64,000 bases of DNA. Origin: Pseudomonas cannabina. Its GTDB lineage: Bacteria; Pseudomonadota; Gammaproteobacteria; Pseudomonadales; Pseudomonadaceae. The notes below the pieces were generated by a model. The model was not told the DNA's origin, did not search any database, and was given only the letters and a program-made list of their open reading frames with translations. The stretch lies in NCBI RefSeq assembly GCF_900100365.1, contig NZ_FNKU01000001.1, positions 682,001-746,000 on the forward strand, given 5' to 3'. Shown here one piece after another: positions 1,147 through 47,439 of this stretch. Position numbers and translations under genes: made by a program. Within the stretch, counting starts at the first letter, position 1. Each line of letters starts with the position of its first letter.

Positions 1147-3508
1147 TCAAGCGTTGATGAGTTGTCTGGCGAGCGCCATTTCTACAGAATCGCCGTCCTG
1201 GTTTAACGAGTCCAGTCCAGACTCTGGAACATCCCCTGACGTGCTCTGTGATACGGCGATCTTCTTGGCCATCAGCTGCAGGCAGGTGATCTGAGAGCTG
1301 CCGATGTAGCCGAAAAAGATCACCCGGACGTCTTGCTTCTGTCCGATCCTCCATGAGCGCCTTGCCGCCTGTTGCACCGTGTAGACTTTCCAACCCGTCT
1401 GCATGAACGCAATGGTCGGAAAGTCGAGCAGATCCAGACCTGTTTTTACGAGCTCCGGGTTGGTGATCAGTACGTCGACGCCTCGATCAACCTGGTCAAG
1501 GATCCAGTCCTCGCGCCTGGCGGTGTCCACCGAAGCACGCAGCACTGCCACCTTCAGTCCCGATTGTTCAAGCACTCGCTTCATGCGACTTGTAGTGTCT
1601 CTGGTTCCCGTGTAAACCGAGTAGGCCAGAACCCTGCGGTTCAGGGCTTTTTCAGCAAGACATAGGTCCAGAAGTGCCTGTTCCTTAGGGAGACGCTGAT
1701 TTATTCTAAAACCCAGCTGTTGCCCCCAGATAAATCAAGGCCTCCAGAGCGTTGCAGGGACGAAAAATCGAATAAATCAGCGCCTCCTTAGGCATGAGCT
1801 CATCGTCACCGAAGATCAATGGCGCGAAAGCCAGTGTGTCTCTGGATCGAGGATGCTTCACCACCTCAGGTCGAAAGCAGCAGTCCGGCCATGCCAACAG
1901 CACGTTCAACACCACCCCTAACAGCGTGGTGTCTCTGCGGGCCAGTGCCTGACGAAGCTCGATGGTCAATGTCTGGGCAAGTTTAAGGTGAGCCGCCTCC
2001 TGGTCTGGAGACATCGGCACGTCAATGAACTCCTCCCGGTAACCAGGTAGTAAATTGCCGCCGATATCCTTGAGTTTCAGGAACACAGTGAAGGGTAAAA
2101 CGAAGCGGTGAATACCTTTCGGGCCGAAACCCGGAGCTTTGACCGTCCGCACCGAGAGTTTCTTACCATTGGCAGTCTTGTGAGAGCTGCCATCACGCTC
2201 GGTGTAGATGTCCTTCAATACCCCGTGATCCCGCATAAAAGACATCGCCGCCGGCGCCATGCTTCCTCGCGAGTTGGGCTGATAGCCGTCCTCGATCATA
2301 CGTCTGGTGAGGATCCGGAACAGGAGGTAGAACAGATCGTCTGCATAGCCGCCCATGAGAGTGCCGGTCAGCAGCACAGTCTTTCGTGCTTTGGCTGCGA
2401 GCACGCCCATAGCCTGACCTTGTGCCGATCCACTGTTTTTGTACTCGTGCCCCTCGTCCACGACCAGTAGGTCGAAGCACCCATCAGGTAGGTAGCGCTT
2501 GATGAACTCGGTGGGCTGGTAACCCCCCTCGCCGAACCCGAACTCGATGTTGGCCATCGCACGCTCCATGCGCTTGGCCTGGCGGTCGCTGAAGATGAAA
2601 TTGCCTTTGGCGTCCATCAGGTTGATGAACTCAGAGACATTGTCCAGAAGCATCGAGGCGAGAAAGTCTTCGCCGAAGTCAGACAAAAGCCGTTCTGCAC
2701 GAACAGGTCCGATTGTAGGGATGCGACACATCGACTTGAGGACCGTGTTGCGGCGGCTGCCGCCATCCGATTTGCCCGGACGCATCAGCGTCCATAAAGC
2801 GGCATTACAGTGATCGCAGCGTCGACGTCGCTCTTCACGCTGAAATTCCTCAGCGGTGATCAGATTGCCTTCCTGGTCCTGGAGCAGACGTCCACAATCT
2901 GGACACGCTGCCAGGCTCCTTCCACCGCCGGCACGCCGTTGCCAAAAGGCCAGACGCCAGTGGAACCCCATCCGCATCCGCACGCGGCCGAGAATAAAGA
3001 ACTCCTGACGTCCGTCGTAGGTATCACCCAGTTGATCGCGCAGCTTCAGCAGCTTGACCAGGGTATCCGGTCCGTTGAGCACCCAGACGCGAGCGTCAGG
3101 GATGGTTTCGAGGATCTCTCGCCGCCACTTGTAGACTAGGTGCGGAGGCGCGATGACCATCGTCCTGCGATAACCAGCTCCATGCATGACTGCAGCGAGC
3201 GCGATGGCCATCATCGTTTTGCCTGTCCCCATCTCGGCATTGATGATGCCAGCCTGCTCATTCTGATCGAGCAAAAGCGCGGCAATGGCCTGGACCACTT
3301 GGGCCTGCGCTGGGAAGGGCTGTCGTTTGAGGCCCTCCAGCACCCACTGGCGAGCCGGATTGTCGATGCCGGCATAGACCGGTGGATTGGAGCGGTTGAG
3401 TGACTCCAGAAGTTCGTCACCAAACTCCTCGATAAACTCAGTGAGCCCAATATTCAAAGCATCGGCTTTCAGGTGGCTCGAGGCCCTTGGCAATGTAATG
3501 TCGTTCAT
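1147..3508 (-). pseudogene. SNF2-type DEAD/DEAH helicase split by a MITE
   Basis: An SNF2-family ATPase typical of PFGI-type ICEs, next to a DNA methyltransferase gene. Seen: Walker A region NAEMGTGKT, the DEGH box in LLVVDEGHEYKN, GTLMGG, a Cys-rich zinc-binding insert (CPDCGRLL then CDHC), and in the distal part the helicase C-terminal motifs (ARRSWRIGQKQDVRV). A 99-bp MITE at 1689-1787 with TTAG duplication interrupts it, so the upstream reading frame ends inside the MITE at 1706. Removing the MITE and one TTAG joins ...LMPKEQALLD... in frame through to the stop at 1147, so no other lesion is needed to explain the break. The start at 3508 is chosen because GGAG precedes it at good spacing. 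The truncated product lacks the second RecA-like domain and is probably inactive. Confidence 0.85.
1689..1787. mobile_element. 99-bp MITE, IS5-type ends, copy 1 (inside helicase gene)
   Basis: Starts GGAGACGCTGATTTATTC and ends with its near-inverse GAATAAATCAGCGCCTCC. It is flanked by TTAG direct repeats at 1685-1688 and 1788-1791, so the insertion site is exact. The body is almost identical to the copies at 14431 and 16214. No coding capacity; the first 11 bases equal the end of the IS5-family element at 1-853. Confidence 0.9.
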
Positions 3509-3573
3509 GGTGTTTCTCCGCATGAGAATGAAACAGGGCACGCACGACACCACGGAGGGTATTGGGCATACCC
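3509..3573 (-). promoter_or_regulatory. Structured leader of the helicase gene
   Basis: On the minus strand a hairpin GGGTAT/ATACCC (3557-3573) precedes the gene, and TGGTGT next to the start codon can pair with ACACCA at 3547-3552. It follows the pattern of the leaders at 5.7-11.3 kb but the start-region pairing is weaker, so I place it in the set with caution. Confidence 0.4.
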
Positions 3574-3611
3574 TGCGGGTTGGTTGAGAGAATGTTTTGT
3601 TTAATGCGCTG

Positions 3612-5071
3612 TCAGTAGTCAGACGGCAACATGATGGTGGTCACGGAGCGATCGACCTCGGTGATGATCCAAAGTCTGGTTTCATCTCCAGCGTCAATGT
3701 CATACCCGGAAAACAATCGACCTTCAGCACTCAGTGCTTGCTGGTTGCTGTCCCAGTCGTCGTTCGAAATCTCGCCCCAATCGCCCGTCGCGTGACGCCG
3801 CAGGTACTGCATCACGTCGAGAGAGTTGTTTTCGAGCAGACTTTGAACGCTATGCGTGAGCACCACACGGCCCAGTTCAAATAAAGCGTCCTGACTACGT
3901 GCATCAGTGTTTGAGGTGGTTTCGTGTGCTGCTGGTGTTGTCGCATCTGAGCTGATGGTCAGTGCGCACCCGAGGTAGGATGAGCCTGGCGTCATATCCC
4001 ATGCCCGAATCCGGGGCACAAAACGATCAGTCAGTATCCGTGTCTCGAAAACGTTGCCGTCCTCGTCCTCGGTGAATTCGGTCTTGGGAACCTTATCCTT
4101 GTAAGTGTCGCCCTTGAGCACCAGGACACGCCCGGACCGAGAGGTCACTACACCGGTTATGGCTCCAGCAGCGAGTGCAAGTGCCAAGTGCCACCTTGAA
4201 AGTGCCTTCACAGGGGCCCGCGGTTGAGCGCCAGTCTGGCCAAAGTGCAGCGTGAAATCAGGCCATAGGCCTCTCAGACGAAGAACCTCTTCACTGAATT
4301 GCTCTGGTTCAAGCGTGATTCGGTAGAATTGTTCCAGATCATTGGCGATCGGCAGGACAGCGTATTGCTCCCATGGCCAAGTGGCCGGTAGCAGATCAGC
4401 AGCTTGCTCCCCGGATCCGATTGCCCGCAAATGCTCACGCATCGCCGCCACTTCCCGGGGTCTTGCCAGATCCTGACGCCGTACCCTGATTCCGAATATA
4501 ACGACCTGTTTGAACGTCCGGTCTACCGCAGCGCATATCCGCAGCCCGGTAAAGTGATTGGTGAGCCAGCCACACAGCTCGTCGTCCAGCACGTAGTGAG
4601 GAACGATGAATACCATCACCCCTCCGTACTGAAGCAACGGCAGTGACCGTTGGTAAAATGCCTTCTCCAGCCTTTTGCGGCCGCTACCCTGGTACTGTGA
4701 AGCGCCAGAGTGATCAGCGACCAGATCCCCGTAGGGAGGGTTGAGCCAGAGCAGTCCGAAGGACTGTCGAGAGATCATGGTGTCCATCAAGTCACCCTGC
4801 AGCACTCGGTCCAGCAACGTTTTCGAGTGATCAGCGCGCTCTTTGTCGTACTCAACCGCATACGCCTCGGTTCGGTCGCGCTCCAGACGGTGTGCGACTT
4901 CAGCCAAAGCCACGCCTTCTCCCGAGCACGGATCAAGAATCCGCATCCGTCCCGAGGTCGCCGGCAACAATGCCTGCAGAGTGCGTTCCAGCGTCAGTTC
5001 GTCAGTTCGTCAGTCGGGTAGTAGCCATTGCGTGCAAAATTACGGGCAAGCCGTGAAAACATCAAAGCCAT
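3612..5071 (-). pseudogene. DUF6094-type DNA methyltransferase, frameshifted by an 8-bp tandem repeat
   Basis: SAM-dependent adenine-type methyltransferase of the DUF6094 family found in PFGI-type ICEs. The SAM motif LDPCSGEGVAL and the catalytic NPPYG (LLWLNPPYGDL) are visible. The family N terminus is present as MALMFSRLARNFARNGYYPT from an ATG at 5071 behind a GGAG site. After about 22 codons the frame is lost within three partial copies of GTCAGTTC (4993-5013). Deleting one 8-base unit restores YYPTDELTLERTLQALL and joins the rest of the gene in frame to the stop at 3612. Internal initiation at 4970 would give 452 residues with the catalytic motifs but without the N terminus. Repeat-based frameshift suggests either decay or reversible slippage. 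Confidence 0.8.
4993..5013. repeat. 8-bp tandem repeat in the methyltransferase gene
   Basis: GTCAGTTC GTCAGTTC GTCAG, about 2.6 units. Removing one unit restores the reading frame; this is the kind of short repeat that changes length by polymerase slippage. Confidence 0.85.
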
Positions 5072-5101
5072 GATCGGCTCCTTGGTAGGTTCGGCGCAGC
5101 G

Positions 5102-5701
5102 CTACGCTGTCACTTCAGTGGTCAGTTTTCCTTCGCGAATGAGTTCGCCCAGGGCTATTTCGAGTACGTCCAGCTGCAGTGACAAACGCCAGGCAGTCAC
5201 CGAGCCAATAGCCCCTGGTAGCGGATGCAGCATGTTGTGCGCAGTAAGGACTTCCATCACCGGCTCACGCCAATGTGGAAGGAAGGGAAGCGGACAAGTG
5301 TCTATGATCAGCGGCCACAACCTGTCGAACGGGTCTTGGGCTTGATTGATGAGCGCGTACGCACAGTGGTTTGCTCGATCCGGCTGCGAGCAACGCTGAT
5401 CGAACAGCCATAAGTGCAACAGGCTGCCGAAGAGCGTTCCGCGAAGCTGGCGAGTGGTGCGTTTTTCCAACTGATCCGTCTCAGGGAACACGGGGATGCG
5501 TTGGTCATTCATGACGATGTGAAACTGGTCCAGGCCATTCTCAGCAGAGCCGAGTGTTAGCCTGGCCAGAAACTCCTGCATGGCCGTGTCGCGGCCCCAG
5601 GCTGAGAGGAATATCAGGTTTCGCTGCTCGTCACAGACGCACGCGTCGACGTACAGATCCGGGCATTCTTCTATGTGAAAGAGTTGAGTGCGGCTCGGCA
5701 T
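5102..5701 (-). CDS. ICE protein of unknown function (199 aa)
   Basis: I do not recognise a family with certainty. The start at 5701 has GGAGG seven bases upstream. The product begins MPSRTQLFHIEECPD, is rich in Leu and aromatic residues, has three scattered Cys, and shows no signal peptide or membrane segment. It lies just upstream of the methyltransferase gene, is probably co-transcribed with it and the helicase, and carries the structured leader described at 5702-5753. A role linked to DNA processing is only a guess from context. Confidence 0.7.
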   Translation of the reverse strand: MPSRTQLFHIEECPDLYVDACVCDEQRNLIFLSAWGRDTAMQEFLARLTLGSAENGLDQFHIVMNDQRIPVFPETDQLEKRTTRQLRGTLFGSLLHLWLFDQRCSQPDRANHCAYALINQAQDPFDRLWPLIIDTCPLPFLPHWREPVMEVLTAHNMLHPLPGAIGSVTAWRLSLQLDVLEIALGELIREGKLTTEVTA

Positions 5702-5753
5702 TAGGACCTCCAAAACAGGAGGGGAACCGCCCTGAGGGGCGGTGAGGCCCCTC
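5702..5753 (-). promoter_or_regulatory. Two-hairpin leader sequestering the RBS of the 199-aa gene
   Basis: First stem GAGGGGC/GCCCCTC at 5734-5753. The second pairs CCTCC (5707-5711 on the plus strand) with GGAGG (5718-5722); on the transcript this is the Shine-Dalgarno GGAGG against CCTCC. One of a family of eight such leaders. Confidence 0.6.
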
Positions 5754-5767
5754 GGGATTCAATGTGT

Positions 5768-6292
5768 TTAGCGGATAAATACGGGTTTATCGATTGCCGC
5801 CCGTGTTTGTTTTTCTGTCTCATACTGCCAGCGACCATCAACGAACGCATCGCGGTCGAAGTCGTAAACTTCAAACACGACGTTTTTGTCGCATGGGTTT
5901 AGATGGGTGCAATACAGCTCACCCTCTGAATTCAAACCGGCGGCCCAGTGATCCCCCAGCTTGAGTCGGTAACCCGGTCGACTCTTCAGCAGCATCGTGT
6001 ATATCTCTAAGATCTGATCGAAACTCAAAGGCTCAGCAGCCACGAGTTTTTTCTCAAGCGGATCGAAGGTTACGGTGTTTGTTTGATACAACGGGCTTTG
6101 CCCAGCAATGAATATCTCGCATCGGAAGCGCGGTCGCATTGCTATGGCCGCGTCTGCCTGTTCTATGGTCAGGTCGAGTTCGTCGACCAGAAAGTTCCAG
6201 ATTTCTGCGTCAGGTGCTTCTTCGTTGTTGGTGAGTTGATCCTCAATGATGTCCAGGATCGCTTTCTTGATATTCATGAAAAGTGGATGCAT
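5768..6292 (-). CDS. ICE protein of unknown function (174 aa)
   Basis: Acidic soluble protein with no motif I recognise. The N-terminal 60 residues look helical (KKAILDIIEDQLTNN, then IWNFLVDELDLTIEQADAAI); the C-terminal half has an aromatic-rich segment (LKLGDHWAAGLNSEG, VVFEVYDFDRDAF). No membrane segment. The start at 6292 has GGAGCATCAC upstream; that site is tied up in a leader hairpin. It is the next gene upstream of the 199-aa gene in a same-strand series. Confidence 0.7.
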   Translation of the reverse strand: MHPLFMNIKKAILDIIEDQLTNNEEAPDAEIWNFLVDELDLTIEQADAAIAMRPRFRCEIFIAGQSPLYQTNTVTFDPLEKKLVAAEPLSFDQILEIYTMLLKSRPGYRLKLGDHWAAGLNSEGELYCTHLNPCDKNVVFEVYDFDRDAFVDGRWQYETEKQTRAAIDKPVFIR

Positions 6293-6341
6293 GTGATGCT
6301 CCTTCAGTCAGTAATGAGGAGCACCCATGAGGGAGCCCTCA
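6293..6341 (-). promoter_or_regulatory. Two-hairpin leader sequestering the RBS of the 174-aa gene
   Basis: Stem TGAGGG/CCCTCA at 6328-6341, then a 7-bp stem TGCTCCT (6297-6303) with AGGAGCA (6317-6323). On the transcript the 3' strand of this second stem contains the Shine-Dalgarno AGGAG of the downstream gene. Confidence 0.65.
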
Positions 6342-6380
6342 GGGGATGTGAAAGTAGATAACGTTCAGTTTTGAACAAGG

Positions 6381-6992
6381 TCAATGAGTGCTGAGATTCC
6401 AAATCTGCAGCTTGAAGTCAAGCTCATACCCGAGCTCGCCAAGGCGAACACATTGTTGCCGCAGACGCTGACGGTCTACCGTTGTATCGAGCTTGACTGA
6501 ACTTCCAAGAGGCCAGATGGTGCCAAACAGCTCTGCATCAGCCTCAAGTGCGGTGACCTGTTTCTCAGGCTCGGATCTCGTCATCCCGAACGGTGCGTCA
6601 CTGTCAGCAGAAACTGATCTTCTGGGAGTTGTTTGAACAGCCGGACGAGGTTTGGTTGACGACGAGCCTCCCGAGGCTTCTTCGTCGAGTGGGTCCGTTT
6701 CGTTGTTGGACAGCCTCTCAGCCTCGTCTGCGCTCAGGTTAGCCACATCGTCCAAAGACATGCTGTCCAGCCTGGCGCGGACTTCGACCACTAATCTGCC
6801 GCCGTTTGTGTAGTAGGAGGGACGAATTTCAGTGATAACGAAATCACCTCGATATTTGCCCTCATGGTACTGGTCCAGCAGCGCATCCTTAATAACGAAC
6901 TCGCCGATGGATGTCGAAAGTCGCCCAACGTTGAAAGCGCCGTTGCGACCGCTGATGGTGCGTATGGCCAAATAGCCGGGCAGGTTGATCAT
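6381..6992 (-). CDS. DUF3275 family ICE protein
   Basis: Matches the DUF3275 family by its N-terminal signature (IRTISGRNGAFNVGRLSTSI, then GEFVIKDALLDQYHEGKY and GDFVITEIRPSYYTNGGR). The family is found on PFGI-type ICEs and has no assigned biochemical role. The N-terminal 75 residues look like a compact beta-rich domain; residues about 85-140 are a low-complexity Ser/Thr/Asp linker; a C-terminal segment of about 50 residues follows. The start at 6992 has GGAG upstream. It follows the 7088-7423 gene after a terminator. Confidence 0.85.
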   Translation of the reverse strand: MINLPGYLAIRTISGRNGAFNVGRLSTSIGEFVIKDALLDQYHEGKYRGDFVITEIRPSYYTNGGRLVVEVRARLDSMSLDDVANLSADEAERLSNNETDPLDEEASGGSSSTKPRPAVQTTPRRSVSADSDAPFGMTRSEPEKQVTALEADAELFGTIWPLGSSVKLDTTVDRQRLRQQCVRLGELGYELDFKLQIWNLSTH

Positions 6993-7040
6993 GACTACTC
7001 CGGATTATCGGGCAGGCCACTTATATGGGAGCCCGAAAAA

Positions 7041-7060
7041 AAGCCCGAAGATTCGGGCTT
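7041..7060 (-). terminator. Rho-independent terminator
   Basis: AAGCCCGAA-GA-TTCGGGCTT forms a 9-bp stem; on the minus strand it is followed by a run of T, 28 bases after the stop of the 111-aa gene. Strong factor-independent terminator between that gene and the DUF3275 gene. Confidence 0.85.
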
Positions 7061-7087
7061 GTTCGTGGTTTCAGGTTGACGACTGGG

Positions 7088-7423
7088 TCAGAAGAGGTTG
7101 AGAGGCTGTTCAGCTCTAAGCGAAATGCAAAGGTAGGAATTGCCGTTTATGGCATCCATCCGATGAAGTCTCAGTTCGAGCCAATGACGCCCCGAGCGGT
7201 CACCGTTGGGCAGAAAACGATAGATGCCGAAGTCGATCTGAACCTCATCTGGCTGCAGATGCAGCTCACGATAGGCTTCGAGTACGACTTCGCCAAGACG
7301 AGTGCCGACCTCCGCAATGTGTGATGGTTGTTCCAAATGAACCGATTCTTTCCAGGCGGAAGGAGTCAGCACAACAGGCAGTTTCAGCAAAGTGGATGGC
7401 AAGTGATTTATGGTGATGGACAT
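7088..7423 (-). CDS. Small ICE protein of unknown function (111 aa)
   Basis: Starts at 7423 (MSITINHLPSTLLKLPVVL) behind TGGAG, a better start than the upstream non-ATG codons. No recognised motif. The second half reads like a beta-sheet domain (EVQIDFGIYRFLPNG, HWLELRLHRMDA, SYLCISLRAEQP). It has its own terminator and a structured leader, so it is probably a single-gene transcription unit. Confidence 0.65.
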   Translation of the reverse strand: MSITINHLPSTLLKLPVVLTPSAWKESVHLEQPSHIAEVGTRLGEVVLEAYRELHLQPDEVQIDFGIYRFLPNGDRSGRHWLELRLHRMDAINGNSYLCISLRAEQPLNLF

Positions 7424-7481
7424 AGTAATTCTCCAGGTGCGGGCAACCACCTGGCCCGACCGGGAGGTGAATTACCCGGTC
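7424..7481 (-). promoter_or_regulatory. Two-hairpin leader sequestering the RBS of the 111-aa gene
   Basis: Stem GACCGGG/CCCGGTC at 7458-7481. A second perfect 7-bp stem CCAGGTG (7433-7439) with CACCTGG (7448-7454) holds the TGGAG Shine-Dalgarno on the transcript. Confidence 0.65.
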
Positions 7482-7557
7482 AGGTTGGTTTACGTTCTTG
7501 AGAACGGTTAGTTAGAATCTTTCTATAACGTGAAAGTCATCTGGCATACGTGTCGTA

Positions 7558-7713
7558 TCAGGACATCATTGCGGTAGCCATCAAGGAAAGGAAAGTGGCT
7601 ACCAATCCTCCAGCCCCTATCTGAGTCAATACTTGCGCGGACATTTGCTGTCCACATTCTAAAAAAAAGATGCTTAACACTGTAAGCACGAGCGTAGCGA
7701 TGGCGCTTTTCAT
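7558..7713 (-). CDS. Putative small membrane protein (51 aa)
   Basis: A 51-codon frame with two hydrophobic stretches: MKSAIATLVLTVLSIFFL and LTQIGAGGLVATFLSLMATA. AGGTG lies about 8 bases before the ATG. The right-hand border of the coding region is only 14 bases from the end of the IS630 element, so the insertion has probably separated the gene from its promoter. No family recognised; real expression is uncertain. Confidence 0.4.
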   Translation of the reverse strand: MKSAIATLVLTVLSIFFLECGQQMSAQVLTQIGAGGLVATFLSLMATAMMS

Positions 7714-7727
7714 GAAATCGACACCTA

Positions 7728-8898
7728 GTGTGATGTTTTCGAAATAAGTTACTTATTGCCTGCGGTTTCAAGTGCTTCACGCGCCCGTTGAATTTTGTTC
7801 AGAATCTCCTCTCCCTTTGCGTTCCAAACGTATCGGGTCGGCTGAGCATTACGTAACGCCATGAACGCTGTAATGGAGCTCTCCAGCTCGCGAACCGAGG
7901 CAAAACTGCCGTCGCGAAGATACACCGTGATGTCTCGAAAGAAGCGTTCAACCATGTTCATCCAAGAGCTGGAGGTCGGCGTGAAATGAATATGAAAACG
8001 CGGATGCTTCGCCAGCCAGGCCTTCACTGCGGCATGCTTGTGGGTCGCGTAGTTATCGACGATCAGATGAAGCTGGAGGTGTTTGGGCGTTTCTTTATTG
8101 ATCTTCTTGAGAAAGGCCAACCACTCTTGATGCCGGTGCTGACGCTCGATGCTGCTGATCAATTTTCCTTGGAGGTAATCCAGTGCGGCGAATAACGTGA
8201 CCGTGCCATGACGGGTGTAATCATGGGATTTAGTCTGGATATGACCGATGCCCAAAGGCAAACCCGGCTGTGTTCGCTCCAACGCCTGAACCTGGCTTTT
8301 CTCATCACAGCACAACACTAAAGCCTTATCCGGTGGGGCCAGATAAAGCCCGATCACATCCCAGAATTTCTCCTCAAACTGCGGATCGTTGGACAACTTG
8401 AATGTGCGCGTCAGGTGGGGCTTTAAATCATTGGCAGCCCACAGCTTATGGACGGTGGTCGAGGAAATACCCGCCGCCTTTGCCATGCTCCGACAGCTCC
8501 AGCGTGGTTCTCCGATGCGAGGACGGGTGACCTGTTCCAGGACACGGCGAACTGTCTCGGCAGGCAAAGATGACTTGCGTCCACGCCCAGGTTCGTCGAC
8601 CAGTCCGCCCAGTCGACGAGCCTGGAAACGCTGGCACCAGAGCGTGATCGTTGGGCAGGAAAAGCCCGTCAAACGTGCAATGTTGTCTCGGGTTTCACCT
8701 TCGGCAGCCAGCAGGATTATGCGTGCTCGACGACCCTCTCGCTGAGGTATGGTGGCAGAGCGAACGCGTCGTTTGAGTTCGATCGTTTCTTCAAGGCTAA
8801 GCGTGATGTCCAGAGCGCTCACGATAAGCTCTCCACGGCTGGGATGACATCTGAAGTGTAGCCGAAAATAACGAAAAGATATTTCGCGAACAGCACAC
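7728..8898 (-). mobile_element. Complete IS630-family insertion sequence (1171 bp)
   Basis: Flanked by TA at 7726-7727 and 8899-8900. The left end GTGTGATGTTTTCGAAATAA matches the inverted right end GTGTGCTGTTCGCGAAATAT. One transposase gene fills the interior. Both insertion junctions are visible, between the small membrane-protein gene and the DUF3577 terminator. It is the likely source of transposase for the three 104-bp MITEs with similar ends. Confidence 0.9.
7749..8822 (-). CDS. IS630-family transposase
   Basis: Transposase of 357 residues, full length for the family. The N-terminal helix-turn-helix domains (about residues 1-120, e.g. DNIARLTGFSCPTITLWCQR) bind the IS ends. The DDE domain shows VLCCDEKSQVQALER (first Asp), LHLIVDNYATHKH (second Asp) and TSSSWMNMVERFF (Glu). 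Nothing suggests inactivation. It inserts at TA dinucleotides. Confidence 0.95.
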   Translation of the reverse strand: MSALDITLSLEETIELKRRVRSATIPQREGRRARIILLAAEGETRDNIARLTGFSCPTITLWCQRFQARRLGGLVDEPGRGRKSSLPAETVRRVLEQVTRPRIGEPRWSCRSMAKAAGISSTTVHKLWAANDLKPHLTRTFKLSNDPQFEEKFWDVIGLYLAPPDKALVLCCDEKSQVQALERTQPGLPLGIGHIQTKSHDYTRHGTVTLFAALDYLQGKLISSIERQHRHQEWLAFLKKINKETPKHLQLHLIVDNYATHKHAAVKAWLAKHPRFHIHFTPTSSSWMNMVERFFRDITVYLRDGSFASVRELESSITAFMALRNAQPTRYVWNAKGEEILNKIQRAREALETAGNK

Positions 8899-8917
8899 TA
8901 GGTTGTGATGAAAAGAA

Positions 8918-8939
8918 AAGGCGCCTGCAGGGGCGCCTT
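8918..8939 (-). terminator. Terminator of the DUF3577 gene
   Basis: AAGGCGCC-TGCAGG-GGCGCCTT, an 8-bp stem; on the minus strand it continues TTTTCTTTTC. It sits 19 bases past the DUF3577 stop codon, and the IS630 element inserted just beyond it. Confidence 0.85.
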
Positions 8940-8957
8940 GAGGTTGTAAAATATCTA

Positions 8958-9527
8958 TCAAGCGGCTTGTTTCTCTCCTCGTCCTGCGCGAGCTGGTTTT
9001 GCTCGTGTTGGCTTAGAGGGAGTAGCAGTTGGAGCTACATCAGTTGGTTCGCTTGCGGCAGACGCCTCGGAATGAACGACTGGGGTAGTTTCCGACTCTG
9101 AACTTTCAGAAGAGGCAGGTGCTTCTTCTTTCTGCGGAGCCTGATAGACGTATTCACCTTCAACTTTGATCCAGGCAAGGTACAAGAGACGGCCTTTGAG
9201 GCTGACACCTGCTTGGCCCTGCTTAGCACCACTGCTGTAGGTAAAAACATCAGCCCAGATATCGCCAATCCGGAAAGAGACAAGAACCTTCTTCTCGGCA
9301 GCAACAGCTTCCTGGCAACGGCGAATCAGCTTGTCAGCTTCAGCACCAACCACGTTGCAGTCGATATAAGCGTACTCAGCCGAGTCAGTGCTGCCTTTGA
9401 GGGCGGCCACTGTGACAGCCATGAAAGGATTCCCTTTACGGGGTTTCACTTCACGAATGCGGTTGAGATAGCCAATACCAGTGGTATGCAGGTCGAAGTA
9501 TTTGCTTTCGTTAGTAGAGTTGCTCAT
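8958..9527 (-). CDS. DUF3577 / STY4534 family ICE protein
   Basis: The N-terminal domain (residues 1-125) has the family signature KYFDLHTTGIGYLNRIREVK and GVSLKGRLLYLAWIKVEGEY; relatives are annotated as STY4534-family ICE replication proteins. The C-terminal 60 residues are a low-complexity Ser/Glu/Ala/Pro tail ending in a basic stretch (PTRAKPARAGRGEK), which may bind nucleic acid. The start at 9527 has GGAG upstream, within a leader hairpin. Family assignment is firm; the replication role is inferred by annotation tradition only. Confidence 0.88.
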   Translation of the reverse strand: MSNSTNESKYFDLHTTGIGYLNRIREVKPRKGNPFMAVTVAALKGSTDSAEYAYIDCNVVGAEADKLIRRCQEAVAAEKKVLVSFRIGDIWADVFTYSSGAKQGQAGVSLKGRLLYLAWIKVEGEYVYQAPQKEEAPASSESSESETTPVVHSEASAASEPTDVAPTATPSKPTRAKPARAGRGEKQAA

Positions 9528-9592
9528 GGTGTGTCTCCAGTTTTGAATGATCAAAGCGGAGATACACTTCGCCCAGGGGGAAGGTATTCCCC
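9528..9592 (-). promoter_or_regulatory. Two-hairpin leader of the DUF3577 gene
   Basis: Stem GGGGAA/TTCCCC (9577-9592). The second hairpin pairs GTGTGTCTCC (9529-9538) with GGAGATACAC (9558-9567), 9 of 10 pairs, with an inner TTTGA/TCAAA helix. On the transcript this buries the GGAG Shine-Dalgarno. It is the clearest member of the family. A structured RNA has, as far as I recall, been reported upstream of DUF3577 genes, and this may be it. Confidence 0.7.
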
Positions 9593-9623
9593 GCATGGGT
9601 GGTAGAGCGAAATTTCACGACAA

Positions 9624-9854
9624 TCAATGCATGAATCTGAACGCAGTAAGCATAACGCCTACGGCAGCAGTCAGCATGACAGCCATACGAATGGTGAGTT
9701 TCAGTTCGAGTCTAGACTCGAGATTGTCGATGTCGGCTTTTGTCGCGAGTTGCGTTTGCATATCCGACTCCAAAGCATCGACTACTGCAGCGGCGCGTTT
9801 TTCCTCCACATCAATCGAAATCAATGCTTGGTACAGCGCAATACTGCTTTTCAT
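9624..9854 (-). CDS. Small coiled-coil membrane protein, DUF1640-like (76 aa)
   Basis: Residues 15-50 form a heptad-rich helix (EEKRAAAVVDALESDMQTQL, TKADIDNLESRLELKL) and residues 54-74 a membrane helix (IRMAVMLTAAVGVMLTAF). This resembles the small DUF1640/CCDC90-like proteins common on phages and ICEs, whose role is unknown. GGAG precedes the ATG and is sequestered by the leader hairpin. Confidence 0.7.
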   Translation of the reverse strand: MKSSIALYQALISIDVEEKRAAAVVDALESDMQTQLATKADIDNLESRLELKLTIRMAVMLTAAVGVMLTAFRFMH

Positions 9855-9901
9855 GAAGGTCTCCTGCTGAGCGCGAGACCTACCCTACGGGAAAGGTCCC
9901 G
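9855..9901 (-). promoter_or_regulatory. Two-hairpin leader of the 76-aa gene
   Basis: Stem CGGGA/TCCCG (9888-9901), then a perfect 7-bp stem AGGTCTC (9857-9863) with GAGACCT (9875-9881). On the transcript the second stem covers the GGAGACC ribosome-binding region. Confidence 0.65.
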
Positions 9902-9913
9902 ATGGGTGTGAGA

Positions 9914-10066
9914 ATCAATGTGCATTCATCAATCAAATAATCTGATCAACCGTTCGCGCTTCCGAATGCTTTGCGAACTAGGGGGTGGATTAATGCGTGG
10001 AACGCATCGTAGTCATGAAATCCAGACTACCTCGGGCATGTTGCTGACAACGTCAGCGGTACATGG
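9914..10066 (-). promoter_or_regulatory. Multi-hairpin element, copy 1
   Basis: Same order of stems as copies 2 and 3: a weak ATCA/TGAT stem, GTTCGC/GCGAAC (from 9952), TGCGT/ACGCA, GTAGTC/GACTAC (10009-10030) and GCTGAC-AAC-GTCAGC. It lies upstream of the leader of the 76-aa gene. The junction side carries a conserved GAATGCACATT that could serve as a -10 region on the minus strand. Confidence 0.6.
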
Positions 10067-10111
10067 CTTTAGAATCCTTTACGGGCGATTCGTTTGTCAA
10101 CCCTCCCAATG

Positions 10112-10140
10112 AAAAAAGCCCCTCAATGAATGAGGGGCTT
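10112..10140 (-). terminator. Rho-independent terminator
   Basis: AAGCCCCTCA/TGAGGGGCTT forms a 10-bp stem; on the minus strand it ends in a run of T. It lies 19 bases past the stop of the 122-aa gene. Confidence 0.9.
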
Positions 10141-10158
10141 GTCGGGGGAGGGGGAGTA

Positions 10159-10527
10159 TCAAGCAATGAGCGGGTCCAGAGAGCCCAGTACAGGGCCCTT
10201 AACGGCTGGTTCAGCATCCTGCTTTTTGGAGGTGGCGGGTGCCTTTGATGCGCGAGGTTTGCGGGGTTTCTTCACCGGCTTGGTCTGAGCTTCTTGCGTA
10301 TTAGCCTCATACCAATCATGAAGGTTGATCCCTTTGTGACGTACTATGGCTGGGACGCTGCAGTAGTTTTCGCACTCGTCGTGGGTCATTGCAGGTTCGG
10401 GCATTTTCCTGCACTGCGGTGCCGCCATATGGACGTTTGCAGGGCTGAGCTTCTGGTTGAACGCACGTGTGCATTCACGCAATGCCGTGCCGACCCTAAC
10501 GCCAAAACGAAAGCTTGCTGTACTCAT
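10159..10527 (-). CDS. ICE protein of unknown function (122 aa)
   Basis: N-terminal half with four Cys, some spaced (CRKMPEPAMTHDECENYC) so that metal binding is possible. The C-terminal 50 residues are Lys/Pro/Ala-rich (KPVKKPRKPRASKAPATSKK), a basic tail that may contact nucleic acid. No family recognised. It has its own terminator, leader and multi-hairpin element, the same architecture as the genes on both sides. Confidence 0.7.
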   Translation of the reverse strand: MSTASFRFGVRVGTALRECTRAFNQKLSPANVHMAAPQCRKMPEPAMTHDECENYCSVPAIVRHKGINLHDWYEANTQEAQTKPVKKPRKPRASKAPATSKKQDAEPAVKGPVLGSLDPLIA

Positions 10528-10583
10528 GGTGTTTCTCCAGGGAAAAATGCGGAGAACACCGCCCGAGTGGGGAGTGATTCCCC
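10528..10583 (-). promoter_or_regulatory. Two-hairpin leader of the 122-aa gene
   Basis: Stem GGGGA/TCCCC (10569-10583). Second stem GGTGTTTCTCC (10528-10538) with GGAGAACACC (10551-10560), ten pairs with one bulged base. On the transcript it pairs the GGAGA Shine-Dalgarno. Confidence 0.68.
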
Positions 10584-10603
10584 GCTGGGTGAGTGACGTG
10601 TTT

Positions 10604-10740
10604 AATGTGCATCCATCGGCGTTTACATCACCGATCGTTCGCGCCTCCGGAAGCTTTGCGAACTTTAGGTTGGATCAACGCGTAGAACGCATCGTAGTCA
10701 TGAGATCCAGACTACCTGGGGTGCTGCTGAGAACATCAAC
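10604..10740 (-). promoter_or_regulatory. Multi-hairpin element, copy 2
   Basis: Stems in the same order as copy 1: ATCGGCG/CACCGAT (one pair is G.U only when read on the minus strand), GTTCGC/GCGAAC, ACGCGT/ACGCAT and GTAGTC/GACTAC. Located upstream of the leader of the 122-aa gene. Confidence 0.6.
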
Positions 10741-11269
10741 GCCATAGGCGCAAGATATTGAGGACACTCCGGATACAGGCGTTCTTTGTGTTGAGGACAA
10801 TGGCTTTCATGCCGGTTCTACTTGCTTCTGCAATTTCCTCTTGACGCCAGCGCTCCTCTTTCTCGGCCCACTCTTTGCGGATGAGCTCCGAATCATCCTC
10901 GGGGTAATATCCATCTGTACTGAAGTCCCCATGGTCATCTGGCCCAGGGAGCTCAAAACACCCACAAGGACAAGTGTCTTCAGTCAGACCGTGGCTGCAG
11001 ATGCCGTGACTACGAATATCGTCCATGTGTGCCTCAATTTCCGACGGTGAAAGATAACCATAGGCATAGCGTGCATAGGCAAATGCCTCCGCCACTTCGG
11101 GTGACGTTTCGTCACCGCCAAAAGTCTCGATCATCCGCGAACAGAAATGTTTGAGGACCATGGTTTCGTATGTGGGAAACTTGCAACATGCGTCGCCGTA
11201 CAGCATGTTGACGCGTTCAGTAATCTCAACATTTTGGAGTGGTGAGCGTGAAGCCGCGTGGTTCGACAT
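10736..11269 (-). CDS. ICE protein of unknown function (177 aa)
   Basis: Acidic protein. Residues 30-70 look helical (ETMVLKHFCSRMIETFGGDE). A Cys/His cluster HGICSHGLTEDTCPCGCFEL near residue 88-107 looks like a zinc site. The C terminus is a charged helix (EWAEKEERWRQEEIAEASR) followed by a short basic tail. No family recognised. The start at 11269 has CGGAG upstream. The 3' end reaches into multi-hairpin copy 2. Confidence 0.7.
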   Translation of the reverse strand: MSNHAASRSPLQNVEITERVNMLYGDACCKFPTYETMVLKHFCSRMIETFGGDETSPEVAEAFAYARYAYGYLSPSEIEAHMDDIRSHGICSHGLTEDTCPCGCFELPGPDDHGDFSTDGYYPEDDSELIRKEWAEKEERWRQEEIAEASRTGMKAIVLNTKNACIRSVLNILRLWR

Positions 11270-11330
11270 GGTCTATCTCCGTTCAAACAGCAGAAAACGG
11301 AGACACTTGTCCCCGAGGGAAAGTATTCCC
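11270..11330 (-). promoter_or_regulatory. Two-hairpin leader of the 177-aa gene
   Basis: Stem GGGAA-AGTA-TTCCC (11317-11330). Second stem, 8 perfect pairs: TCTCCGTT (11276-11283) with AACGGAGA (11296-11303). On the transcript it covers the CGGAGA Shine-Dalgarno. Confidence 0.68.
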
Positions 11331-11397
11331 CGAGGGTAGGTGAGTTATATGATATGACTCGGCTAAGCCGAGTGCAGCACGGTGTGCGACGTGAATT

Positions 11398-11540
11398 ATG
11401 CATCCATCGGTACGGAATACCGATCGTTCGCGCCTCCGGAAGCTTTGCGAACTTAGGGATGGATCAATGCGTTGAACGCACCGTAGTCATGAGATCCAGA
11501 CTACCCGGGCATGTGGCTAACAACGTCAGCGGTACATGTC
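11398..11540 (-). promoter_or_regulatory. Multi-hairpin element, copy 3
   Basis: Stems ATCGGTA/TACCGAT (11406-11424), GTTCGC/GCGAAC (from 11426), TGCGT/ACGCA, GTAGTC/GACTAC and a degenerate last stem. On the minus strand the downstream side reads GATGCATAATTC, a plausible extended -10 just before the leader of the 177-aa gene. Confidence 0.62.
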
Positions 11541-12183
11541 TTGAGAATGAGAATTCGGGGAGGGCTTGTCAAGCAGTAGTAGCGCAGGAGTCGCTTATGA
11601 TCTTGGGTGAACGGCAATGACGTGATGAATCGCACACCATTTAGGCGAGAGCGCTCGCCAGATCGGGGATCACTTGAGCGCAGCGGCCAAGAGGATAACG
11701 ATGAGAATCGTGCTGAGAGTTATCATCGTCACAGACGATCACTCTCAGCCAATGTGGGCTTGGCTATAACTTGAAAAATGTGCCACCTGTGAGCGCAAGC
11801 TCAGCGAGGATCCCTGGGCATTGATCGCACGCATTGCTTCATCGACATCACCCGACCCGTTGTCGTGGCTTGGGCCAGTAATCAAAAGGCACGCATTCGC
11901 GCACAAAAGGAGCCCGTTTTTTCACCGGCGGGCACCGGCAGCGAAAAGTGGCTACCTCGGAAGGTAACCTGGTCATCCAGCGCGCTGCGAGATGACCAGG
12001 TTACCTTCCGAAAAAGCGGGGGAATTTGAAAAAAAGTGGGCCACAACACCAGTGTGACCCTGAGACGATTATGCATCGAACCTTCCATGAACCCTATGTG
12101 CCTATGAACCCGCTTTCACGAGTTAGACGGCTGCGTGTCTGCTATTGAACAGGGAGACACAGGGAGAATTCACAACAAGATCT
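11541..12183. other. Non-coding, hairpin-rich interval (candidate origin or oriT)
   Basis: No convincing gene; the only 68-codon frame reads through palindromes. Features seen: an imperfect hairpin GCTGAGAGT/ACTCTCAGC with inner ATCGTC/GACGAT (11712-11749), a GAGC-GCAA-GCTC hairpin near 11790, and a perfect 21-bp inverted repeat at 11957-12011 whose 13-base loop includes CAGCGCGCTG. The location beside topB and the single-strand fold-back potential suggest an origin of transfer or replication. That role is inferred. Confidence 0.5.
11957..12011. repeat. 21-bp perfect inverted repeat
   Basis: Arms contain GGAAGGTAACCTGGTCATC (11959-11977) and its exact inverse (11991-12009), extended by two more matched bases on each side. 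The loop itself holds the palindrome CAGCGCGCTG. No T tract follows on either strand, so it is not a simple terminator. Confidence 0.9.
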
Positions 12184-47349: not shown

Positions 47350-47439
47350 GGAGAGATGCCAGAGTGGCCGAATGGGACGGATTCGAAATCCGTTGTACCT
47401 TCACCGGTACCTAGGGTTCGAATCCCTATCTCTCCGCCA
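47350..47439 (+). tRNA. tRNA-Ser (anticodon CGA)
   Basis: 90 bases with a class II long variable arm. Acceptor GGAGAGA pairs with TCTCTCC before GCCA. Anticodon stem ACGGA/TCCGT with loop TTCGAAA gives anticodon CGA, reading UCG. T arm GGGTTCGAATCCC. The CCA end is encoded. Confidence 0.95.

Follow-up and report, generated by a model that had tools for sequence, protein, structure and literature searches.

The stretch of DNA investigated here, a 64,000-nucleotide window from Pseudomonas cannabina (contig NZ_FNKU01000001.1, positions 682,001 to 746,000) that is part of a 6.39 Mb genome, carries on its minus strand the genes of an integrative and conjugative element (ICE) of the PFGI-1/SPI-7 type, as recognised by an NCBIfam search of the window proteins. 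Eight of these genes are preceded by leaders which probably function as bistable translational control leaders. In each of them, a GC-rich hairpin (hairpin 1) is followed by a stem that masks the Shine-Dalgarno sequence (SD) or its neighbourhood. From 5' to 3', the leader comprises the 5' arm and loop of hairpin 1 (strand a), its 3' arm (a'), a linker, the anti-SD (b), a U/A-rich loop, the SD region (c) and the AUG. A third helix is conferred by the complementarity of a to b, which together would form one long hairpin that is mutually exclusive with both a:a' and b:c and that would free the SD. We envisage a state A, which would be OFF, where a:a' forms hairpin 1 and b:c masks the SD, and a state B, which would be ON, where strand a with its loop pairs with b and leaves c accessible. 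A pairing constraint on each of the three helices, mutually exclusive as they are, is shown by the comparison of leaders. The eight leaders and the seven pairings quoted in a preliminary description of this DNA are all present in the sequence and both of the hairpins it described are real, but it missed the third helix, which would make the leaders bistable, and the interval it assigned to the family (5702..11330) leaves out the leader of gene 3508 (3506-3579). In window coordinates, the leaders and their strands are:

3506..3579, minus strand: leader of the SNF2-type helicase gene 3508; hairpin 1 3556-3574, a 3566-3576, b 3533-3545
3547-3551 with 3509-3513, minus strand: short stem of leader 3508
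5699..5756, minus strand: leader of gene 5701; hairpin 1 5730-5756, a 5737-5753, b 5719-5732, c 5707-5711
6290..6345, minus strand: leader of gene 6292; hairpin 1 6324-6345, a 6332-6341, b 6315-6326, c 6297-6303
7421..7484, minus strand: leader of gene 7423; hairpin 1 7455-7484, short stem 7448-7454 with 7433-7439
7465-7478 (CGGGTAATTCACCT, a) with 7440-7452 (AGGTGGTTGCCCG, b), minus strand: a:b of leader 7423, with one bulge and several G-U pairs
9525..9599, minus strand: leader of the DUF3577/STY4534 gene 9527; hairpin 1 9572-9599, a 9580-9594, b 9556-9570, c 9529-9538
9852..9907, minus strand: leader of gene 9854; hairpin 1 9882-9907, c GAGACCT 9857-9863
9894-9901 (CGGGACCT, a) with 9874-9881 (AGGTCTCG, b), minus strand: a:b of leader 9854
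10525..10589, minus strand: leader of gene 10527; hairpin 1 10562-10589, a 10573-10585, b 10549-10560, c 10528-10538
11267..11336, minus strand: leader of gene 11269; hairpin 1 11311-11336, a 11321-11332, b 11298-11308
11296-11303 (TCTCCGTT) with 11276-11283 (AACGGAGA), minus strand: SD stem of leader 11269

The second stem had been claimed to pair the gene's own SD in seven of the eight leaders, and in seven it indeed touches the SD, although in leader 7423 no more than the first two bases of GGAG take part in the stem CCAGGTG/CACCTGG, which leaves the rest of the SD core outside. In leader 3508 the SD is not paired in this manner; here the minimum free energy (MFE) structure is one long hairpin, and the short stem GGTGT/ACACC is located between the SD and the start. 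The a:b helix of leader 5701 is formed by GAGGGG...ACCGCCC pairing with GGGCGGT.CCCCTC.

The evidence that carries our interpretation comes from the comparison of distant leaders. In a main set of 74 leaders with less than 80% identity, the duplex energies of strands from the same leader were compared to those of swapped strands in 20,000 permutations. For a:b, own duplexes reach -17.95 compared to -12.62 kcal/mol for swapped ones (z -16.3, 0 of 20,000). The same preference is found for b:c (z -11.4) and a:a' (z -8.2, 0 of 20,000 each), both scores being partly selected by R1, a covariance model of the state A structure only that contains both helices and whose 33 source leaders include three of the window. 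Since R1 lacks a:b, the counts for this helix are not built in. In contrast, the control a:c, which is not expected to pair, shows a z of -1.2. The same pattern is displayed by 23 further leaders, taken as a follow-up set from loci of a later phylum scan and dissimilar to the first set by 6-mers (z -9.1 for a:b, -6.0 for b:c, -6.1 for a:a' and 0.1 for a:c), and by a permutation of 100 leaders within GC bins (a:b z -16.1, a:c 0.0). Near-duplicates were dropped from these sets and from a set of 109 leaders used further below, and the counts at single pair positions used 94 of the 100 leaders.

These results also bear on a simpler explanation, which appears quite unlikely to us, namely that plain SD-masking stems are accompanied by an independent stabilising hairpin and that a:b is a by-product of a GGGG 5' arm resembling the SD. 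Such an arrangement would be in line with the purine-rich character of both a and c, with the generic switching of MFE structures that is common in control genes and with the weak a:b scores of some families, but a:b reaches past the SD helix. The bases 3' of the anti-SD, which lie outside SD masking, add -5.6 in own compared to -3.5 in swapped duplexes of the 74 leaders (z -9.7), and this gain is leader-specific also in the follow-up set (0 of 20,000). At the first base beyond the anti-SD, 72 of 94 leaders pair with a (permuted 59.9, maximum 71), 59 of them as CG. The second base is paired in 65 of 94 (permuted 37.3, maximum 53 in 5,000 permutations), with all four Watson-Crick types represented (GC 23, CG 22, AU 11, UA 5, besides GU 2 and UG 2), and at the third the count of 38 of 92 is not significant (permuted 32.7, maximum 47).

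Specific pairing is equally found within single elements. In the window, a:b is more stable in own than in swapped combinations (-14.5 compared to -10.0 kcal/mol, p=0.0008, or p=0.0074 without the helicase leader) and the same is true for b:c (-11.9 compared to -9.4 kcal/mol, permutation p=0.007), which, together with the b:c preference in the 74 leaders, upholds the earlier claim that different sequences maintain the same pairing. Over nine elements, which are related and thus not independent, p ranges from 0.0004 to 0.07 for a:b and from 0.0004 to 0.007 for b:c; in these swaps, DUF3275 was skipped in four of the nine and a mis-parsed DUF3577 leader (L034) was kept. A swap test based on the MFE of chimeric molecules had given mixed results for the nine elements (5' half with b: p 0.0001-0.09, and 0.053 in the window), since competition by hairpin 1 hides a:b, and was replaced by the duplex energies.

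Among orthologous leaders of eight gene families (262 of 264 parsed), the mean z of a:b against shuffled b ranges from -1.2 to -3.0. Alignment cells with changes on both sides of a pair exceed those of shuffles for a:b of 34 helicase (snf2, 3508) orthologues (15 compared to 3.9, 0/500), whose a:a' is 95% paired and includes a compensatory pair type. The same holds for state A of 21 g9854 orthologues (23 compared to 9.3, 0/500) and 43 DUF3577 orthologues (17 compared to 6.5, 0/500) and for the mixed alignment A8 (a:b 11 compared to 4.0, 0/500; state A 8 compared to 3.8, 5/500). Some of these sets were assembled by motif, which kept 17 g7423 leaders and picked 43 and 34 of the 89 DUF3577 leaders. 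In alignments cut before the SD, RNAalifold predicts a:b for g7423 (19 orthologues, kept by motif), g10527, snf2 and g6292, with rows L120, L053, L039 and L107 of g6292 and row L121 of g5701 left out of the set. A G-U pair within the a:b helix is invariant in three alignments (43/43, 29/29, 33/33), but not in all distant leaders (L199). This invariance makes sense if the U of b has to pair with the A of the SD in one fold of the RNA and with G in the other, and it fits a tuning towards the OFF state. It argues against the view that the leaders are inverted repeats acting at the level of DNA as protein operators, which we regard as very improbable even though the leaders do form imperfect inverted repeats. 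A further argument against operators is the open frame of at least 40 amino acids that follows 86 of 89 R1 matches (redundant loci included), although the model itself contains the AUG.

For most leaders, the ground state is predicted to be state A, in which the SD is hidden. Over the 74 leaders, state A is predicted to be favoured over SD-open structures by a median of 4.4 kcal/mol (interquartile range 6.1 to 0.5), with the SD core more than 50% paired in 96% of them. During elongation of the RNA, five of the eight window leaders (3508, 5701, 6292, 9854 and 10527) are predicted to adopt the long hairpin as MFE structure just before the SD, and leader 9527 does so at two of the computed lengths; once the SD is included, the MFE structure of 5701, 6292, 9854, 10527 and 9527 changes to two hairpins and that of 3508 stays unchanged. 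The predicted mean probability of an open SD hardly responds to temperature (0.13, 0.13 and 0.14 at 20, 28 and 37 °C), which leaves little room for RNA thermometers where warming would open the SD, a highly unlikely explanation to which the proximity of the masked SD to the AUG would otherwise lend itself. The preference for state A and the low effect of temperature together suggest leaders that are by default silent and to which a second fold is accessible.

The long hairpin and a following U-rich tract might alternatively constitute an intrinsic terminator, with hairpin 1 as antiterminator, but we consider transcription attenuation unlikely. Over the six bases that follow the helix, U makes up a fraction of 0.47-0.70, which is lower further on, and the tail score exceeds 3.0 in 15 of the 74 leaders, but a run of four U within nine bases is found in only 25 of 74, so that a minority would qualify as terminators, and leaders 7423, 9854 and 6292 lack such a run as read from their sequence. 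The SD of a read-through RNA would in addition still be masked by b:c, and the bias for U may instead serve the loop of this stem.

In the bistable mechanism that we favour, masking of the SD would block translation in state A, state B would permit it and the balance would be tipped by a trigger, most likely a factor from the ICE or the host with hairpin 1 or the long hairpin as its target. Since the stem sequences differ between leaders of one ICE, such a factor would have to read either the shape of the RNA or the outer CCC...GGG. With CCC before and GGG after hairpin 1 in 95 of 109 non-redundant leaders (shuffled 7.9, maximum 15), a feature that R1 partly selects for and that is kept in AT-rich hosts too, this outer motif is the best candidate for recognition by the putative factor, and a single common factor may serve all leaders. 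Co-transcriptional folding offers a plausible alternative trigger, given that the MFE structure of the RNA that stops just short of the SD is the long hairpin in five of the eight window leaders and, at some lengths, in a sixth. A common small RNA is an unlikely trigger since b differs between leaders of one ICE. As regulator, CsrA/Rsm is less favoured, with no csrA in the window (three are encoded elsewhere in the genome) and the GGA of the SD placed in a stem rather than a loop in state A, and a leader peptide was rejected as reading frames through the leaders are, by eye, not conserved.

Several observations weigh against a bistable switch. The MFE structure of leaders 7423 and 11269 never passed through the long hairpin, in a few leaders (3508, L202, L179:2033) the MFE structure is the long hairpin itself, and the SD core is poorly masked in 3508 and 7423. 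A probability of an open SD below 0.5 is predicted for all eight window leaders, yet also for 71% of 208 control genes (below 0.2 for five of eight compared to 18%). A generic score of MFE partner-switching, which was dropped as a test, showed no enrichment of ICE-locus genes (162/582) over core-genome control genes (71/258). As both measures overlap with the controls, the case rests on comparison. There, the own a:b of 9527, 10527 and 11269 comes no higher than third or fourth among the eight (-11.0, rank 4 of 8, for the latter), and the g5701 and g6292 families show weak a:b scores (z -1.2). The number of pairs with changes on both sides does not exceed that of shuffles (230, 450 and 282 of 500 in the helicase, g9854 and DUF3577 sets, 441 in the mixed alignment A8) and inherited changes are counted per sequence, so that the cell counts, which are inflated by kinship, provide moderate evidence. 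For state B, counts in fixed columns fail to reach significance in alignments A4 (40/500) and A6 (291/500) and are weak in A3 (23/500), which partly reflects register shifts and invariant columns. For g9854 and g5701, RNAalifold predicts no more than hairpin 1 in alignments cut before the SD; for DUF3577 it predicts nothing there, and it detects no structure in the full set of 89 DUF3577 leaders. By eye, the duf3577b clade (34 DUF3577 leaders, picked by motif) mostly lacks b:c and SD masking, a member showing a b:c of -5.8 compared to a mean of -11.8. Finally, no factor was found; ten more ICE proteins showed no RNA-binding domain above the Pfam cut-off and a single sub-threshold Sof1-like match. 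As a separate observation, hairpin 1 is very strong and a:b contains two mismatches in the duf3577b clade (e.g. L040:10301-10375) and in L158:9921-9991.

The distribution of the family was investigated with R1. Within the window, the model recovers 9527 (E 5.7e-18), 10527 (3.8e-13) and 11269 (5e-12), which are among the sequences that built it, and, of the leaders not used in its construction, 3508 (E 0.0001), 7423 (0.00027) and 5701 (0.027), with 6292 weak (0.35) and 9854 not matched at E<=1. In 60 ICE loci (1.115 Mb, including most source loci of R1) there are 189 matches at E<=0.1, compared to a best E of 0.098 in 400 kb of other DNA from the same genome as control. All seven matches at E<=0.01 in the own genome are confined to two ICE copies, the second of which, at 5.64 Mb (L031, C1:5632500-5652400), encodes a DUF3577 protein of 97% identity and has its own leader set. 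Leaders are matched in 46 of 199 genomes of the genus (E<=0.0001), among them all 32 DUF3577-positive ones, as expected for a model rich in DUF3577 leaders, in 21 of 274 genomes of the class (E<=0.001, own included; 20 of 273 others) and in 15 of 398 genomes of the phylum (E<=0.0001, own included). They are also found on plasmids of Pseudomonas veronii, Enterobacter ludwigii and Shewanella baltica. In ICEHin1056 (L224 7930-9889), leaders with AU-rich stems precede four consecutive genes after topoisomerase III, radC included (E 3e-11 and 6e-6, two weak at 0.12 and 0.19). The proteins downstream of R1 matches fall into 29 clusters. The proposal of a real RNA family with covarying stems and SD masking that is spread over related ICEs is supported, and the checks suggested at the outset (a covariance model, Rfam, other PFGI-type ICEs and covariation) were run and for the most part passed.

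Three of the leaders are located downstream of a known RNA:

11400..11548, minus strand: radC RNA (RF01754), 101.3 bits, upstream of leader 11269
10609..10756, minus strand: radC RNA (RF01754), 76.8 bits, upstream of leader 10527
9922..10075, minus strand: radC RNA (RF01754), 96.3 bits, upstream of leader 9854

The coordinate difference between the end of the radC RNA and the leader is 64 (hairpin 1 of 11269), 21 (R1 match of 10527) and 15 (hairpin 1 of 9854), and in seven loci 12 of 16 radC RNAs lie 14-43 nucleotides upstream of an R1 leader, with four lacking a leader. The leaders themselves do not match RF01754, which matches only upstream of these three. With Rfam 15, only radC and a tRNA are detected at gathering scores in the window and only radC in seven other loci; at E<=1, the window region yields only radC and one chance microRNA match, with no family covering the leaders, and at E<=0.5, 20 distant loci yield only matches far under gathering scores. 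The radC RNA (Weinberg et al. 2010, PMC2864571) shares elements and genes with the leaders, but it is a separate, sequence-conserved RNA of about 150 nucleotides whose model leaves out the switch. The same source describes the STAXI motif (RF01728), which is found near topoisomerase, SSB and integrase genes and thus in a similar neighbourhood, but which consists of tandem pseudoknots and has no Rfam match to the leaders (PMC2864571). In translational riboswitches and attenuators with anti-SD and anti-anti-SD strands, exclusive helices equally decide on SD access, but the leaders show no conserved aptamer and their stem sequences differ within one element; hairpin 1, where a ligand domain might be sought, is short and of variable stem sequence, with the outer CCC/GGG recurring. 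The mRNA of the type I toxin hok is metastable with alternative folds, as is reportedly a type I toxin mRNA of Helicobacter pylori (PMC6733600), where the order of folding may matter; both resemble the leaders in their alternative folds but concern single toxin genes rather than many genes of an element. A DUF3577 RNA motif, said to have been reported by Weinberg et al. in 2017 before DUF3577 and other genes, may coincide with the DUF3577 leader. Literature searches, partly swamped by unrelated papers, retrieved no report of these leaders, and we do not claim their absence from print. The family follows the known principle of the bistable translational leader; what is unusual is its repetition over many genes of an element with freely drifting stems.

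A wider proposal, which we advance only tentatively, is that dozens of genes of PFGI-1/SPI-7/ICEHin1056-type elements form a regulon, each carrying an isostructural three-strand switch that evolves privately and all being read by one factor recognising shape. If so, the replication and maintenance proteins of the element would be released together at the translational level. To our knowledge, control of ICEs of this type has been studied mostly at transcription, and a switch that precedes many genes of one element and is maintained by covariation in hosts ranging from Pseudomonas to Haemophilus would represent an additional, translational layer. Such a family would provide a defined and testable RNA, would place the unexplained radC RNA within a composite leader and, with b complementary to two partners at once and all three strands drifting, would present a clean natural case of triple covariation.

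The NCBIfam matches in the ICE include PFL_4669 (TIGR03761), the PFGI-1 ParB protein (TIGR03764) and the replication proteins STY4528 and STY4534, the latter being encoded by the DUF3577 gene at 9527, whereas a Pfam search found no match for six of the eight leader-bearing genes. The DUF3275 gene at 6992 has no leader here but is preceded by one in some relatives, so that leaders appear to be gained and lost along with genes. An open reading frame at 7749-8822, located between the leader of 7423 and the DUF3577 gene, resembles an IS630-type transposase, named by reading alone. The DUF6094 methyltransferase gene appears to be frame-disrupted at its 5' end (4970-5073), which adjoins a short tandem repeat, and its relatives align only from codon 23 onward. 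A long, almost perfect inverted repeat at 11955-12013, between the topoisomerase gene and the first radC RNA, shows a weak Rfam microRNA match far under the gathering score. A tRNA gene at 47350-47436 (54.2 bits) might, as a guess, mark the attachment site of the ICE.

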